Virus record (IMG/VR): IMGVR_UViG_3300026078_000072
Coordinates: 1-29,643 of that record
Source of the DNA: a virus
Length of the DNA stretch: 29,643 nucleotides
Direction: 5' to 3' (one strand)
Program-made: the position numbers and the translations under genes
In this document: in pieces, positions 4,240-28,037 of the stretch
Position numbering within the stretch: the first letter of the stretch is position 1
How the letters are laid out: each line of letters opens with the position of its first letter
The notes under the pieces: model-generated
Told to the model about the DNA's origin: nothing
Database searches by the model: none
The model's input: the letters and a program-made list of their open reading frames with translations, nothing else

Positions 4240-4357
4240 CAATCACCATTATCTTTCCGCAATTCGCGCAGTATCCATATGTTTTAGTGTAAATGCAAAG
4301 CTTATGTTTGCAATTCCGCGAATATCCCCCTAATCGAATCCTGTGAATGATCCACAA
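4232..4357 (-). CDS. Possible small zinc-ribbon protein overlapping the end of gene 43
   Basis: A leftward frame ends at 4232 and encodes a C-terminal segment with C-x2-H, a further Cys, then YCANCGKI, a typical zinc-ribbon knuckle. It runs past the stop of gene 43 (4302) and overlaps the start of the next gene by 8 bases, filling an otherwise empty gap of about 60 bases. There is no ATG close to the motif. TTG at 4357 would give 41 residues; a TTG at 4432 would give 66. The Cys-rich tail looks selected, but start and expression are uncertain. Confidence 0.4.
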   Translation of the reverse strand: MWIIHRIRLGGYSRNCKHKLCIYTKTYGYCANCGKIMVIDG

Positions 4358-6773
4358 AAGTCCATCGAATTGCTTCAAGAATAGATTCAATTGGTTTTTG
4401 AAATACCTTTTCAAACTGGCGTTCCTTATCAATATACTCCATCAATCCAAATTCTTCGGGAAGTTCATCCGAAGCAGCAATCACAGTCTGATGGATGATA
4501 TTCGGCATTTTCAAATATGAGTAACGAATTTTATCCCCGTCATTAATATGCGGATACTTATTTTCCAATCCATATTTTTGCAGCAAATAATTGTAAATCA
4601 AACAACCCTTAACATGCATCGGAGTAGCCGAAATATAAATTGTACTCGGATGATGATATTTTGTCAATCCTTTCACTGACGAAGGAGAGGCGATTTCATT
4701 AAATGGTAATGATAGAAATTCCTGTTTATAGGCTGCACATGCATCCTGCACAGTTTTCTCATCCGTATTCATGATCTGAAATAGGGTCTGTTTAATCTTC
4801 GCACGCACCGCAAGCGGCGTTGATGATCGAACCGCCTCGATGCCCTTCATTTTAATTTTAGGCGGGTCCTGATACATTCCTTCGTCATCAATGACATTCA
4901 TGATGTACATCTTGGCCGCGCGCCAAATGGCCTTATCCGCGATTACCTCGCGATTGAATTTAAATTTTTGCGCAACCGCATTAATACCAGTGCTAAATTC
5001 AGTGCACCACGTCCCCGTAAGAGGAAGTATCTTCTCTTTAAAGATTTTGTCGATGGTTGAAACAATCTTTGTTCTGTCGCTGCCATCAAGGCCGAGTTTA
5101 GTGACAAGTGCATCAAGTGTAAGATGGATCGAGTCAGTATCGATTGCCACCACGTAATCGACGTTATCGGTACTAAGCGCATTGTTCATCCACCTGTTGA
5201 TTTTGTGTTCAATAAAACGAATCAGATACTGTCCCGTGGACGTAACGGATTCTGCCATATCCTCATCATAAAAACGGAAGTATTCGTTCGCCATTGCGCC
5301 GTATCCCCCGTTAAGTAGGATTTTCTGCGCATTTTGGTAATTGTCAAGTTTGGCAATGAGATATTCGTCGTTATTTTTCTTGGCTTCCTTTAGCTTGACT
5401 TTGGCTTCTGCTCTTTGTGTAAAAAGTTTTTCCATCAAGGCAGGAAAGAAACCTTGATTCTTTCGATCATAATAAACAGTGGGCGTTAAAACCACATTCT
5501 TTTCTTGTGCAAGTTTTGCAATATCTTCTGGTATTCCTTTCAACAAATCATGAACTTCCGTCTTATGATAAGAAATGATTTTCTCGGGTGAAATGTTGCA
5601 ACCCATGATGATGTGCGGGTACATCGACACCAAATCAATAGTGACAACCCATTTATGAAATCCAGCCTGTGGCTCTTTCACAAAACCACCTGCAATACGA
5701 CGAGTAGGTTCGTTTTTACTGGGCTGCGGAACCACCATCTTACGATCCAACAAGTAGTTGGTGATCATAATATCCCATGGTTTCACGGTCCCAAATACGT
5801 CGTTGTAGTTCACTTTGGCGTTGTATGCCATCTGAACTGCCTGACCGATGTAATTTAGTTTCTTGTTGATTTTATCGACCAGAACGCAATCGTAAATGTT
5901 GTAATCAATGTAGAGATCATGATCGCTCTCATAAAGATCATTGAGCGTACCATGTTCTGAGTAATCAATTTTTTCTTCTCCTATTTCAACCTTTGCGATG
6001 TGATTGAGAGAATAAGATTCTTCGTTTCCTAGTTTGAATTTCTTATAAAGCGGAAGGTAATCAATGATTGATACACCTCGAATATGATATTGATAATACT
6101 TGTCTTTGTTTGTTTCGACTTCCTGTTCCCAGACACTGCGGAATGGAGATAAACGTTTGATAGCACTAACACCCAGCAGGTTTCCAATCCGATTTATGAG
6201 ATAAGGAATGTCAAATTTTTCGATGTTCCAACCAGTGACAATGTCGGGGTCGAGTTTCTTCCATGTGTCTATAAAAGCCTCCAACATGGAAGTCTCATTT
6301 CGACACTGAATGTAGTTCGCCTTGGATTCCTTGTTTCTGTAAGGTTTTAAACCCAGAACAAACACCTTCCCGCCGCGAGTCATGGTGATTGCTGAGATAG
6401 GCCATTCAGCCTTCTTCGTGTCCGGGAATCCCTTTGTGGCTATTACTTCGATATCAACTGTAACCACTGAAATGAGAGAGGGATCGAATTCGACTACTCC
6501 TGGAAATTCATCGTTGATATACTGATAGACAAAATCTTGATTTCCAAAAACCTCATGATTCAATGCATATTTCTTGGCTGTATCAACATTTTTAAAATGA
6601 AGTTTTTCAAGACATTCACCATCCAGTGTATGCCAGTCTTCCGGACTCTTTCCTTTGATGAATAGATAAGGTTTGTAATCTAGCTCATCCTGAAATCGTT
6701 CGCCTTTTGCATATCCTCTACAAAATATTTTATCTTTTGATAGATAAACATTTGTGTAAAAATAATCGTTCAT
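4302..6773 (-). CDS. 43: Family B DNA polymerase, T4 gp43
   Basis: This 823-residue protein is the replicative DNA polymerase with 3'-5' proofreading. The exonuclease motif I is VTVDIEV near 105-110 (catalytic Asp and Glu), followed by the Exo II-type GWNIEKFDIPYL. Polymerase motif A is DLVSMYPHI, motif B is the KILLNGGYGA region, and motif C is IDTDSI with the catalytic aspartates. T4 gp43 has 898 residues, so this one is compact. The ATG at 6773 overlaps the stop of the preceding small gene (ATGA). It works with the gp45 clamp, loaded by gp44/gp62, whose genes lie about 20 kb away on the other strand. Confidence 0.98.
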   Translation of the reverse strand: MNDYFYTNVYLSKDKIFCRGYAKGERFQDELDYKPYLFIKGKSPEDWHTLDGECLEKLHFKNVDTAKKYALNHEVFGNQDFVYQYINDEFPGVVEFDPSLISVVTVDIEVIATKGFPDTKKAEWPISAITMTRGGKVFVLGLKPYRNKESKANYIQCRNETSMLEAFIDTWKKLDPDIVTGWNIEKFDIPYLINRIGNLLGVSAIKRLSPFRSVWEQEVETNKDKYYQYHIRGVSIIDYLPLYKKFKLGNEESYSLNHIAKVEIGEEKIDYSEHGTLNDLYESDHDLYIDYNIYDCVLVDKINKKLNYIGQAVQMAYNAKVNYNDVFGTVKPWDIMITNYLLDRKMVVPQPSKNEPTRRIAGGFVKEPQAGFHKWVVTIDLVSMYPHIIMGCNISPEKIISYHKTEVHDLLKGIPEDIAKLAQEKNVVLTPTVYYDRKNQGFFPALMEKLFTQRAEAKVKLKEAKKNNDEYLIAKLDNYQNAQKILLNGGYGAMANEYFRFYDEDMAESVTSTGQYLIRFIEHKINRWMNNALSTDNVDYVVAIDTDSIHLTLDALVTKLGLDGSDRTKIVSTIDKIFKEKILPLTGTWCTEFSTGINAVAQKFKFNREVIADKAIWRAAKMYIMNVIDDEGMYQDPPKIKMKGIEAVRSSTPLAVRAKIKQTLFQIMNTDEKTVQDACAAYKQEFLSLPFNEIASPSSVKGLTKYHHPSTIYISATPMHVKGCLIYNYLLQKYGLENKYPHINDGDKIRYSYLKMPNIIHQTVIAASDELPEEFGLMEYIDKERQFEKVFQKPIESILEAIRWTFVDHSQDSIRGIFAELQT

Positions 6774-17830: not shown

Positions 17831-17932
17831 ATGACAAATTTAACCAAATTTAACAAGAATGTTGTCGTGCATTCTTCCGATTTTGATAAACGAAGTGAAG
17901 GAGTTTGGAATATGGATAATCAATTTAAGTGA
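17831..17932 (+). CDS. Possible 33-residue ORF, cut short by a 23-bp duplication
   Basis: ATG 17831 opens a frame that ends at TGA 17930-17932, inside the tandem duplication. Its last six residues, MDNQFK, are the same as the first six of the MazG-like protein. If one copy of the 23-base repeat were removed, this frame would join the MazG-like gene in phase. So it is either the former N-terminal extension of that protein or a chance open frame over its leader. A weak ribosome-binding site precedes it. Confidence 0.4.
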   Translation: MTNLTKFNKNVVVHSSDFDKRSEGVWNMDNQFK

Positions 17933-17953
17933 ATATGGATAATCAATTTAAGT
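17908..17953 (+). repeat. Exact 23-bp tandem duplication over the start of the MazG-like gene
   Basis: The 23 bases at 17908-17930 are repeated without change at 17931-17953. The unit includes a start codon and the codons for MDNQFK. The first copy follows a good ribosome-binding site (GAAGGAG, about 17896-17902) at normal spacing, with ATG 17912; the second copy carries ATG 17935, from which the long frame now runs. Because 23 is not a multiple of three, the first copy's frame hits a stop. Confidence 0.95.
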
Positions 17954-24005: not shown

Positions 24006-24034
24006 TTGACCTAAACTACTCTCCTTCATATATT
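24006..24034 (+). promoter_or_regulatory. Sigma-70-like promoter for gene 45 (TTGACC-17-TATATT)
   Basis: TTGACC at 24006-24011 and TATATT at 24029-24034 have the ideal 17-base spacing. The word TTGACCTAAACT resembles TTGACATAAACT at 27326. Transcription would begin near 24041, inside the loop or right arm of the hairpin at 24019-24054, so transcripts from here lack the left arm. Confidence 0.65.
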
Positions 24035-24054
24035 TAAGTCTGTATGAAGGAGAG
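24019..24054 (+). promoter_or_regulatory. 12-bp hairpin covering the gene 45 ribosome-binding site
   Basis: CTCTCCTTCATA (24019-24030) and TATGAAGGAGAG (24043-24054) are perfect inverted copies with a 12-base loop. The right arm contains the AAGGAG ribosome-binding site of gene 45 (ATG 24063). A transcript read through from upstream would fold and hide it; one started at the internal promoter would not. There is no U-tract after it, so it is not a typical terminator. Confidence 0.8.
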
Positions 24055-24062
24055 ATTTTGTT

Positions 24063-24728
24063 ATGTATACTATGAAATTAAGTAAGGAGACGATTAAGAT
24101 TCTGGAGAATTTTTCCAGCATCAATAAGAATCTCCTGATTCGTCCTGGATCAACTCTCAGCACAATTAAACCGACCACAGAAGCGGTGTATGCTCGCGTT
24201 GACATTCCGGAAGTTTTTGAAAGTAAGATCGGCATTTATGATATCAGCAATTTGCTGGGTGCTTTGCGTCTCTTCGATGATCCAGAATTGGAAGTAGACA
24301 CCAATTCGTTGGTAATTCGTGAAGGTAACAAGCATCTGAAATATCATTTCGCCAGTGAAACCGTTCTTATTGCTCCCCCTGAAAACCTTGTTCCTGATCT
24401 GGTTGCCGATGTATCATTCACGGTATCGGCCCAGGAAATATCTTTCTTGGAAAAGATGGGAAATGTCCTGAAACTACCGGAACGTTCGATTTCCGGTGAT
24501 GGAAGACTCTTGACGTTGAATGCCTTGGATTCTAAGAACAAGGATACCAACATTCAAACAGTTGAAGTTGGTAATACCACTGAATTTTTCAACTTGATCT
24601 TCAAGGAAGAAAATATCAACTTGATGCCGGGTGATTACGAAGTTGGCATCATTAAAAAGTTTCGGGTGGCTCGGTTCAAAGGACCGGTTGAGTATTTCGT
24701 AAAATACGAACAAAACTCAACTATTTGA
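24063..24728 (+). CDS. 45: Sliding clamp, T4 gp45
   Basis: A 221-residue protein close to T4 gp45 (228). It tethers the polymerase to DNA and also activates late transcription by gp55. The start MKLSKETIKILENFSSINK is the gp45 pattern, followed by two clamp-fold repeats. ATG 24063 is at good distance from AAGGAG; ATG 24072 is where similarity to T4 begins, so both are possible and the first is preferred. Expression is likely controlled by the hairpin and promoter just before it. Confidence 0.94.
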   Translation: MYTMKLSKETIKILENFSSINKNLLIRPGSTLSTIKPTTEAVYARVDIPEVFESKIGIYDISNLLGALRLFDDPELEVDTNSLVIREGNKHLKYHFASETVLIAPPENLVPDLVADVSFTVSAQEISFLEKMGNVLKLPERSISGDGRLLTLNALDSKNKDTNIQTVEVGNTTEFFNLIFKEENINLMPGDYEVGIIKKFRVARFKGPVEYFVKYEQNSTI

Positions 24729-24798
24729 AATAATTCGCGGCGTAGGACCTAAACACATAAGTGTGGGACTGGTCGCCCCACTGCCGCGATCAATTATT
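24729..24798 (+). ncRNA. Structured leader RNA with possible pseudoknot between genes 45 and 44
   Basis: AATAATT-CGCGGC (24729-24741) pairs with GCCGCG (24783-24788) and, past a 3-base bulge, AATTATT (24792-24798): 13 base pairs. Inside, AGTG-T-GGG (24760-24767) pairs with CCC-CACT (24776-24782), leaving loop ACTGGTCG. The loop's GGTC (24771-24774) can pair with GACC at 24746-24749 upstream, an H-type pseudoknot. An ACAC/GTGT hairpin competes. The ribosome-binding site of gene 44 (GGAG 24801) starts two bases after the long helix. No U-tract follows, so this is not a terminator. Confidence 0.65.
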
Positions 24799-24810
24799 AT
24801 GGAGTTGTGA

Positions 24811-25743
24811 ATGATTGACCACTTTGTATGGGCCGAAAAATATCGTCCCCATTGCGTTTCCGACTGCATCCTTCCTCCTTCCCTGAAATCCATTTTTCAG
24901 GGCTACGTTGATCAGAAGAATATCCCCAATCTAATCCTTTCAGGCGGCCCAGGAACCGGTAAAACAACCGTGGCCAAGGCTATGTGCGAGGAATTGGATT
25001 GCAGCTATATGGTCATTGACGGGACGCGGGACGGTGATATCGCCACCATCCGCACCAAAGTTGAGCCGTATGCATCTTCTATTTCATGGAAGGAAGGTCG
25101 CAAGTACGTTATTTTTGATGAGGCAGACTATCTGACTCATAAGACGCAGCCAGCCCTGCGTAACCTCATGGAAGAATTTGCGAGCAATTGTGGTTTCATC
25201 CTGACCTGTAACTATGTCTCGAAAATCATCGAACCGTTGCAGTCGCGTTGCCCACCGATTCATTTTGTCTTTAAGAAAGAAGACAAGGTGAAAATGGCCA
25301 TGCAATTCTATAAGTCAGTTGAAAAGATGTTGCAGACTGAAGGTGTCGAATATGACAGCAAAGTCTTGGCTGCATTGATTTCCAAGTATTTCCCGGATTT
25401 TCGCCGGGTCATCAACGAGCTTCAAAAATACGCATCCAGGGGAAAGATTGATGTTGGTATTTTGTCGGATTTTACGGCTTCCTTCAAGGAACTTTGCGGT
25501 TTCATGAAAGAAAAGAATTTTACATCAGTGCGTAAATGGGTCGCGGATCACATCGATTCCGAACCGGCACACATGTTTCGTCAGTTTTATGACGGTGCGT
25601 CGTATTATTTCACACCGAAATTCTTACCGGAATTGGTTTTGATCATCGCGGAATATAGCCACAAGGCGGTTATGTGTCTGGATCAGGAAATCAATATGAC
25701 GGCATTTTTCGTGGAAGTTATGTTAAGAGCAGAGTGGATATAA
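24811..25743 (+). CDS. 44: Clamp loader large subunit, T4 gp44
   Basis: A 310-residue AAA+ ATPase (T4 gp44 has 319) that with gp62 opens and places the gp45 clamp on DNA. WAEKYRPHCVSDCI is the clamp-loader start; Walker A is GGPGTGKT at 45-52, Walker B IFDEADYLT, and LQSRCPPI gives the SRC motif with the arginine finger. ATG 24811 has GGAG six bases upstream. In T4 this mRNA is repressed by RegA, whose gene is 1.5 kb downstream here. Confidence 0.97.
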   Translation: MIDHFVWAEKYRPHCVSDCILPPSLKSIFQGYVDQKNIPNLILSGGPGTGKTTVAKAMCEELDCSYMVIDGTRDGDIATIRTKVEPYASSISWKEGRKYVIFDEADYLTHKTQPALRNLMEEFASNCGFILTCNYVSKIIEPLQSRCPPIHFVFKKEDKVKMAMQFYKSVEKMLQTEGVEYDSKVLAALISKYFPDFRRVINELQKYASRGKIDVGILSDFTASFKELCGFMKEKNFTSVRKWVADHIDSEPAHMFRQFYDGASYYFTPKFLPELVLIIAEYSHKAVMCLDQEINMTAFFVEVMLRAEWI

Positions 25744-25922
25744 TGTGGGTGCCGGAAGAAAAGATTTACATTGTGATGATGAAACATGGTGCAAATCAAT
25801 TTGTTCACGGTGTTTATCGCTCACGCGCTGCCGCAAAACAAGCTTTGGAACTACGTCAAGTCCAGGGATCAAATCCACCATATTGGTATTGGGTAGAGGA
25901 ACATATAATCAATGACCGTTGA
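25743..25922 (+). CDS. Small hypothetical protein between genes 44 and 62
   Basis: A 59-residue protein from ATG 25743, which overlaps the stop of gene 44 (TAATG). It begins MWVPEEKIYIVMMKHG and contains SRAAAKQALELRQVQG. It looks like a small beta-beta-alpha domain. It overlaps gene 62 by 11 bases, so it is an insertion of one small coupled gene into the usual 44-62 pair. Function unknown. Confidence 0.65.
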   Translation: MWVPEEKIYIVMMKHGANQFVHGVYRSRAAAKQALELRQVQGSNPPYWYWVEEHIINDR

Positions 25923-26304
25923 CGGTTTCCTTTTCCTGGAAGACATTTCCAAAAAGAAAGAAAACGTCCTCGAATTGAACCCGGAATTGGAAGAAGAATA
26001 TTCAGCCATTTTCGTCAATCGGGGACTGTCTCAATTCATGGATACGATTTTTCCTGCTAACGAGATGAATATTCGTCCATATTTAGATAACAAATTACAA
26101 TTCGACTATTTGTTTCACACGGTGCGTAAGTTGTCACGCTATGGTAAATGGGTCAAAAAAACACCTGAAAATGATTTTGATAGCCCGATTATCGCTCGAT
26201 ATTTCAATTGTTCGCTGGTCAAGGCCCGCGAATACGCGAAAATTCTAAATAATAAGCAAATAGATGAAATAAAAGAGAGGATGAAAACCGGGGGAACTGG
26301 TTAA
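25912..26304 (+). CDS. 62: Clamp loader small subunit, T4 gp62
   Basis: A 130-residue protein; T4 gp62 has 187, so this one lacks part of the chain but keeps the pattern: GFLFLEDISKKKENVLE, FVNRGLSQFMDTIFPANEMN, LQFDYLFHTVRK, and the helical C-terminus IARYFNCSLVKAREYAKIL. It is the non-ATPase partner in the gp44/gp62 loader. ATG 25912 lies within the end of the small preceding gene. The position between 44 and regA is as in T4. Confidence 0.9.
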   Translation: MTVDGFLFLEDISKKKENVLELNPELEEEYSAIFVNRGLSQFMDTIFPANEMNIRPYLDNKLQFDYLFHTVRKLSRYGKWVKKTPENDFDSPIIARYFNCSLVKAREYAKILNNKQIDEIKERMKTGGTG

Positions 26305-26314
26305 AAATAAGAAA

Positions 26315-26737
26315 ATGAGTGAAACATTTAATGATTTCGGAATCGAGGTGGAATTACCGTCAAAGGAAGATTTTCTCAAGGTTAAAGAAACTTTGACTCG
26401 TATCGGAATTGCATCAAAAAGAGAAAAAGCTTTATACCAATCAGCCCATATTCTCCATAAACGAGGTAAATATGCTATAGTACATTTTAAGGAATTGTTT
26501 GAATTGGACGGCAAGAAATCTGATCTCAATGAAGAAGACATCAAACGTCGCAATGCGATTACTAAGTTGTTGGAAGAATGGGGACTGATTAAGGTTGTTG
26601 AACGTGAAAAAATGATGGCGTTACAAACGTCCTTAAAACATACGAAAATCCTTCAATTTAGTGAAAAGAAGGATTGGAAACTTTTGGAAAAATATAAAGT
26701 AGGTAAAAAGAAGGAGACTAACTATGGCAATCATTAA
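26315..26737 (+). CDS. regA: RegA translational repressor
   Basis: A 140-residue RNA-binding protein that blocks ribosome binding on many early phage mRNAs, including its own and gene 44 in T4. The sequence closely follows T4 RegA: EDFLKVKETLTRIGIA, LYQSAHILHKRGKYAIVHFK, and LLEEWGLIKVVE. It is 18 residues longer than T4 RegA (122) because of a basic C-terminal tail (KVGKKKETNYGNH). The ATG 26315 is preceded by AAATAAGAAA, without a clear ribosome-binding site; the same 13 bases precede and include the ATG at 9152, which may be an operator. Confidence 0.96.
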   Translation: MSETFNDFGIEVELPSKEDFLKVKETLTRIGIASKREKALYQSAHILHKRGKYAIVHFKELFELDGKKSDLNEEDIKRRNAITKLLEEWGLIKVVEREKMMALQTSLKHTKILQFSEKKDWKLLEKYKVGKKKETNYGNH

Positions 26738-27643: not shown

Positions 27644-27675
27644 AACCCCGGTTTGTGCCGGGGTTAATCTTTTTT
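27644..27675. terminator. Strong intrinsic terminator, probably bidirectional
   Basis: AACCCCGG (27644-27651), loop TTTGTG, CCGGGGTT (27658-27665), then AATCTTTTTT. On the other strand the hairpin is followed by TTTTT from the A-run at 27641-27645. It ends the long rightward block and stands between convergent genes. Confidence 0.9.
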
Positions 27676-27680
27676 AAAGA

Positions 27681-27734
27681 ACGGTGGGAAGTGGTTCTAA
27701 CTTAGGAAAGAACCTTACCCGAATGTTCCCACCG
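27681..27734. other. Long inverted repeat with inner hairpin in the convergent gap
   Basis: ACGGTGGGAA (27681-27690) pairs with TTCCCACCGT (27725-27734). Inside, GGTTCT (27693-27698) pairs with AGAACC (27709-27714). The remaining gap to 27791 shows no gene. On the leftward strand the outer stem is followed by TTCTTT, so it could serve as terminator of the leftward genes; the two-stem design is unusual for that. It is too short and lacks arms for a tRNA. Confidence 0.6.
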
Positions 27735-27791
27735 TCTTTCCACTACGTTTGCGTCCGACACGAAGAATTTCCACCTTCCTCGTATGGCGAC

Positions 27792-28037
27792 TTAGCCCGC
27801 AGCGGAAAGAGAATGTGATGTTGCGAAGTGACGCGTCCAGGCGTCTACTTCTTCGTTGGACAGCGGAGGTAGTACCTGAGATGTTCGACGTGTGAGCTTG
27901 TCACGTTCATGGCGTGCCCAGTAGTAGGCATCATCCAGGCTTCGAAATGGTTTAATGTGAAAATTTCCATAAAGTTTCACAAACCATTTTGATTGTCGTT
28001 TGACAATCTCAAAGGGTCCACAGTTAATGGTCTTCAC
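27792..28037 (-). CDS. Small hypothetical protein, last gene of the right leftward cluster
   Basis: An 81-residue protein from GTG 28037 with AGGAT about eight bases upstream. FEIVKRQSKWFVKLYGNFHI is a pair of beta strands and SLDDAYYWARHERDKLTRR a helix, a small AP2/Arc-like arrangement seen in many short phage proteins. The C-terminus is probably flexible. Function unknown. Transcription would end in the inverted repeats at 27644-27734. Confidence 0.65.
   Translation of the reverse strand: MKTINCGPFEIVKRQSKWFVKLYGNFHIKPFRSLDDAYYWARHERDKLTRRTSQVLPPLSNEEVDAWTRHFATSHSLSAAG

Follow-up and report, generated by a model that had tools for sequence, protein, structure and literature searches.

A GC-rich stem-loop in the variable slot between the clamp and clamp-loader genes of a T4-type virus: a tentative role in separating gp45 from gp44

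In T4-type phages the sliding clamp is required in much larger amounts than the clamp loader. These phages are also said (by Arbiol et al. in 2010, cited in PMC4177764) to carry PeSL cassettes, in which an early promoter is joined to a repeated stem-loop. The element described here, between genes 45 and 44 of a viral sequence record, resembles these cassettes in that a stem-loop sits between two genes of a T4-type genome, with a position that varies between relatives, but it has no early promoter and no U tract, and no second copy of it was found in the record.

In both T4 and RB69, gene 44 is repressed by RegA, which binds RNA that is unstructured, rich in A+U and located at the start or beside it (PMC3014915). 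T4 RegA selects AAAAUUGUUAUGUAA, RB69 RegA selects AAUAAUAAUAAnA, and the T4 gene 44 operator is AAAUUAUGAUU (PMC3014915). Like these operators (of gene 44 and gene 45), our locus has A+U-rich RNA with an AUG beside the gp44 Shine-Dalgarno sequence, and RegA is encoded downstream; the difference is that RegA sites are unstructured, and the GC hairpin found here is no part of such an operator. The gene 32 pseudoknot operator of T4, T2 and RB69 is likewise a structured leader, which lies 5' of a gene for replication and has an A+U-rich ribosome-binding site after it (PMC3014915). However, it serves another gene, no sequence relation to it is seen, and a pseudoknot is not the fold predicted for our element. 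The clamp gp45 is also an activator of late transcription (PMC2988020).

We read the element as an intercistronic stem-loop, specific to its lineage and placed in a variable slot, which would insulate gp45 from gp44 or set their ratio, beside a RegA-operator-like site. This is a plausible reading and the one we prefer, yet by no means an assured one.

The gene module and the closing helix

The window, as we call the whole stretch of DNA analysed, is a virus record of 29,643 bases with a T4-type clamp and clamp-loader module around the gap of interest (Table 1). The nearest known gp44 relatives are about 50-55% identical, hence the record has no close relative. As originally predicted, genes 45 and 44 are 82 nt apart (24729-24810; sequence AAUAAUUCGCGGCGUAGGACCUAAACACAUAAGUGUGGGACUGGUCGCCCCACUGCCGCGAUCAAUUAUUAUGGAGUUGUGA). 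The accompanying statement that nearly all other genes overlap or nearly touch was overstated, given a gap of 76 nt just 5' of gp45, in which a promoter-like sequence is found together with a strong hairpin. A consensus scan calls that hairpin a terminator, unlike the element in the 45-44 gap. An in-frame upstream extension of gp44 is ruled out by a stop codon at 24808, and a mini-ORF 5' of gp44 (AUG GAG UUG UGA) was dropped, as it is not kept in relatives.

Table 1. Positions of genes and sequence elements in and around the 45-44 gap (window coordinates)
Feature	Positions	Strand	Remarks
gp45, sliding clamp	24063-24728	+	Upstream cistron; PHROG 223, E 3e-57
gp45 stop codon TGA	24726-24728	+	Abuts the element
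5' AU arm AAUAAUU	24729-24735	+	Conditional helix extension, directly after the gp45 stop codon
GC core helix, 5' strand CGCGGCG	24736-24742	+	Six GC pairs near probability 1 in three contexts
GACC	24746-24749	+	Complementary to GGUC 24771-24774; ~92% paired, nested helix
ACAC-AUAA-GUGU hairpin	24753-24764	+	Nested fold; ~29% in the ensemble
GUGGG/CCCAC hairpin	24763-24781	+	GUGGG 24763-24767, CCCAC 24777-24781; alternative pseudoknotted fold
GGUC	24771-24774	+	Partner of GACC 24746-24749
GC core helix, 3' strand UGCCGCG	24782-24788	+	Pairs with 24736-24742
3' AU arm AAUUAUU	24792-24798	+	Overlaps RegA-operator-like AAUUAUUAUG (24792-24801)
AUGGAG	24799-24804	+	GGAG (24801-24804) is the gp44 Shine-Dalgarno, within the shared ATTATGGAG tail; aligned by eye with relatives' leaders
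gp44, clamp-loader large subunit	24811-25743	+	Downstream cistron; PHROG 168, E 3e-105
56-aa ORF			Between gp44 and gp62
gp62	25912-26304		PHROGs
RegA	26315-26737		PHROGs
Family B DNA polymerase	4302-6773		Strand opposite to the clamp module

The arms AAUAAUU.CGCGGC (24729-24741) and GCCGCG.auc.AAUUAUU (24783-24798) give a closing helix of 13 bp with a 3-nt bulge, made up of 7 AU pairs, the bulge and 6 GC pairs. This is the 13-bp helix of the original prediction; when the gap is shuffled 1000 times with its dinucleotides preserved, 0.5% of the shuffles reach a closing helix of 13-14 bp, and one of such length is seen in 1.2% of the record's 82-nt windows. Pairing near 100% in longer contexts is limited to the GC part (6-7 bp, CGCGGCG/UGCCGCG); for the 7 AU pairs the pairing depends on context, being mostly 6-14% in two longer contexts and mostly 58-69% in a third.

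Several other structures were seen in the window. The promoter-like sequence 5' of gp45 (24006-24054) reads TTGACC-17-TATATT, its -10 lying inside the hairpin CTCTCCTTCATA...TATGAAGGAGAG (z -6.4); a possible GGAG ribosome-binding site of gp45 is in the 3' arm, and the layout is that of the gp44-upstream hairpins of L072, L083 and L086. The 9-mer 'GACCTAAAC', common to this region and the element, was set aside, being part of the TTGACC -35 box there. A second compact fold at 27677-27740, with a CGGUGGGAA/UUCCCACCG closing helix and an inner GGUUCU/AGAACC hairpin, has no Rfam match and no gene assigned to it, and comes after a strong bidirectional terminator at 27644-27665. There is further a strong AU-rich double hairpin at 27940-28010 (z -4.8), and a perfect 23-nt tandem duplication at 17908-17953, close upstream of where an ORF begins (17929).

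A possible pseudoknot in the window and a candidate one in another clade

The original prediction included a 4-bp, pseudoknot-like pairing of GACC with GGTC. The complementarity exists, but in the predicted ensemble GACC/GGUC is nested (~92%) outside the ACAC/GUGU hairpin and is no pseudoknot. The pseudoknotted form needs GUGGG/CCCAC in place of ACAC/GUGU, and this hairpin amounts to 1% in Vienna, which cannot model pseudoknots. For the H-type order GACC-13-GUGGG-3-GGUC-2-CCCAC the stacking sum is -18.7, which 3.3% of loop shuffles reach (p 0.033). An H-type scan of other leaders was exploratory, with 40 shuffles only, and its best window solution lies outside the originally predicted stems. 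Judging from these models, a pseudoknot in the window element is possible, but not favoured.

Other T4-like leaders carry AACGA-n-GCRGG-CUC-UCGUU-nUAAA...-CCYGC, 5' of TATATTATG. The loop pattern matched 57 IMG/VR contigs (L184-L240, with L199 as a chance match; an example is at L195:4165-4210, and L188 has a near-tandem repeat of the AACGA/UCGUU motif). With four loci on MAG contigs added, gp44 follows the motif in 60 of 61 loci and gp45 lies at most 900 nt upstream in 54 of the 61. Four loci with the motif (L145, L146, L150, L151) were searched against Rfam without a match. A second scan, in which the loop stem was freed, found at least two loci (L257, L346) with AGCGA/UCGCU, a two-sided change. 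The MAFFT alignment misplaced the length-variable loops, so the stems were excised before counting; in eight distinct rows with the variable loops cut out, 98.8% of cells pair, four pairs change on both sides against 1.6 in shuffles (6/500 as high), and covariation is 0.386 against 0.107 in shuffles (0/500), every slid control being far lower. Since the stems were located by complementarity, parts of the motif were fixed (UCGUU in the first scan, GGCUC in both) and the covariation of the first stem rests on one change, these figures favour, and do not prove, the view that AACGA/UCGUU and GCRGG/CCYGC form a candidate H-type pseudoknot that covaries in both stems. This candidate points to selection for RNA structure in the 45-44 slot of that clade.

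The gap of the window does not belong to this family, as the motif (stem, CUC loop, UAAA) is absent from it. Both lie in the slot 5' of gp44 and share the H-type stem order and a 3-nt loop between the second and third strands; the sequences, however, are unrelated, the conserved CUCUCGUU and UAAA loops are absent in the window, and the first loop has 1-2 nt in the clade and 13 nt in the window.

Could the window element nevertheless be a pseudoknotted translational operator of gp44? The GUGGG/CCCAC hairpin would form, and within the loop closed by the GC helix its loop GGUC would pair with GACC further upstream; a protein of replication would then bind and repress gp44, like gp32 on the T4 gene 32 leader, an operator that provides the precedent (PMC3014915). 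The H-type geometry is better than 97% of loop shuffles, and the covarying H-type pseudoknot of the other clade occupies the same slot, but the sequence is unrelated to that family, Vienna prefers the nested alternative, 2 nt leave little room for a loop that has to span a 4-bp stem, and no credible match came from a one-sequence covariance model run on 148 other loci. We consider such an operator unlikely.

Two further observations concern the leaders of gp44. A third structure lies upstream of gp44 in three loci, L104:438-467, L108:1427-1456 and L142:1433-1462 (GUAGGU...GUGACCUAC), where GUAGGU/ACCUAC encloses an inner stem that differs by locus (CGAG/CUCG, GGGA/UCCC, GAUG/CAUC). In L056 and L057, whose gp44 is about 80% identical to that of the pseudoknot clade, the leader differs, and its hairpins AGUCAGGACA.../AGUCAAGACA... 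before gp44 keep pairing through two-sided changes.

The 45-44 slot in relatives and the candidate classes

Among 123 distinct 45-44 gaps (that of the window included), 54 are shorter than 40 nt, 20 have 40-130 nt (one being the window's) and 49 are longer. The slot is variable, and in many lineages it is structured by unrelated means. Relatives' gaps of 40-100 nt (n=16) contain an obvious single hairpin in 10 cases, T4 among them, and a tRNA in 2; in gaps of 40-130 nt the mean + strand z is -1.55. The hairpins are usually U-tailed terminators, some of which have a -10 box within their loop, and a strong one stands right before a T-rich TTATTATGGAG-like tail in, for example, L074, L148, L083, L072, L086, L088, L107 and L111. 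No strong hairpin is present in L098, L116 and L117, nor by whole-gap z in L143, and the UUCG hairpin in the T4 slot is not significant by shuffles (z -0.6). The tail AATTATTATGGAG of the window is common with relatives, some of which have the short AU-rich spacer TTTTTTGAATTTTTTATTATGGAG (alignment by eye); because of this shared tail, the element looks as if inserted into a short AU-rich spacer.

In L072, L074, L083, L086, L107 and L148 a TATAAT-like box lies in the stem or the loop of the hairpin; several of these hairpins are preceded by TTGAC, and most are followed by a run of T. Where a -10-like TATAAT or TATACT lies within the loop and TTGAC upstream, as in several relatives, the hairpin could, as we read it, end the transcripts that reach it and at the same time hold the start of a new one. 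These boxed hairpins in the same slot, and the mean z of the 40-130 nt gaps, make it conceivable that the window element is a degenerate intrinsic terminator or terminate-and-restart element that lost its U tract. Yet the consensus scan does not call the + strand element a terminator, no sigma-70-like promoter was found within it on that strand, and it is followed by AUCAAUUAUUAUGG, with no U run; this origin is quite unlikely.

Total stability raises the question of strand. On the mRNA strand the fold of the 70 nt has z -2.4 and is within the top 1.8% of 70-nt windows, while the whole 82-nt gap has z -1.2 (p 0.11) and the 53-nt core z -1.4; the + strand is thus modestly unusual at most in total stability, although chance would seldom give its closing helix. 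The minus strand stands out more (z -3.9 for the 70 nt, -3.7 for the 82-nt gap and -3.4 for the core), in part since a G-U pair takes the place of an A.C mismatch there, and the GUGGG/CCCAC hairpin is extended to a stem of 7 bp, one of them G-U. One might argue from the ordinary + strand value, from this better minus-strand fold and from the absence of the sequence in the closest relatives (L001, L002) that we are dealing with a non-functional AT/GC inverted repeat, a product of chance or of a slipped insertion, or with an element that acts on the minus strand or as DNA. The helix is rare in shuffles, though, no minus-strand gene that could use it was found near the gap, and the sole minus-strand promoter match (24821-24793) is weak, the region's match count being below that of its shuffles. 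We regard this explanation as improbable.

Known classes do not account for the element either. Rfam gave no match at gathering and none at E 10 (301 and 88 nt, both strands), which agrees with the original prediction, where no known class had been recognised; attC, ribozyme (twister, pistol) and riboswitch readings were likewise dropped for want of Rfam support. The element is no recognised riboswitch, terminator or tRNA, and the ligand-sensing leader once envisaged is not supported. It is highly improbable that it is a decayed tRNA or tRNA-like element, even though intact tRNAs sit exactly between gp45 and gp44 in two relatives (tRNA-Trp L090:890-963 and tRNA-Arg L109:1407-1481), ending in CCA before the same tail, and a 7-bp CGCGGCG/UGCCGCG helix followed by U-A, a 5-bp GUGGG/CCCAC arm before the 3' strand and an A-UCA end can be made out by eye, since ARAGORN and the Rfam tRNA model (RF00005, even at E 10) find none here while detecting both of those tRNAs as positive controls, and there is no anticodon arm or T-loop sequence.

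Homologues were sought by blastn against phages and plasmids at E 10 (chance matches only), by gapped and degenerate patterns in IMG/VR (none), and by the one-sequence covariance model in 148 loci (one match elsewhere at E 2.5, not credible). A gp45 query in IMG/VR gave no relative; a RegA query did, and their 45-44 gaps are different. The covariation proposed as a check thus found no support, no homologue having turned up in phages, plasmids, the IMG/VR patterns or the 148 loci. In all available relatives the gap is indeed unrelated, with only the AU-rich ATTATGGAG tail in common, which would speak against a function if they were close; the nearest has about 54% gp44 identity, so they are not. 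As judged by its sequence, the element is an orphan, one of a kind among the available relatives.

Proposed insulation of gp45 from gp44 and the RegA-like site

Insulation at the gp45-gp44 junction would work as follows. The element most likely acts in cis on the polycistronic replication mRNA, where the stable GC stem may limit ribosome coupling across the junction and may mark or protect the message of gp45 at its 3' end; in this way the clamp (gp45), which is abundant, would be kept apart from the less plentiful clamp loader (gp44/62). The earlier idea that the fold in the gap sets the gp45:gp44 ratio is supported in outline, as it fits the contents of the slot in relatives (terminators, promoters in hairpins, tRNAs and a covarying pseudoknot).

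The AU-rich base of the helix would add to this. Of 146 gp44 leaders, 77 contain TATTATG, as against 47 of the 611 other ORF starts in the same loci, counts from related rows and hence given without a P-value. In the window, UCAAUUAUUAUGGAG at 24790, a putative RegA site, agrees with the SELEX consensus of T4 RegA (PMC3014915) at 10 of its 15 positions. The AU portion of this putative site doubles as the 3' arm of the closing helix, so that helix closure would compete with RegA. Given the overlap with AAUUAUUAUG beside the Shine-Dalgarno sequence, closure may be set against access of RegA or of the ribosome. That the RNA forms in the cell, changes expression and competes with RegA is what we infer.

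Against insulation, it has to be said that the element has no homologue, its mRNA-strand z is -1.2, the minus strand folds better, the U tract is absent and the RegA match is 10/15. A broader hypothesis, in our opinion a rather doubtful one, is that RNA operators which differ by lineage have repeatedly settled at the 45-44 junction, where they set the ratio of clamp to clamp loader, the window element being one of them, pseudoknotted, bound by a replication protein and equivalent in function to the unrelated pseudoknot of the other clade. If lineages do repeatedly install different RNA devices at this junction, be they terminators, promoters inside hairpins, tRNAs or pseudoknots, it would offer a natural setting in which several answers to a single problem of stoichiometry can be compared, and the covarying pseudoknot of the other clade is its testable part.
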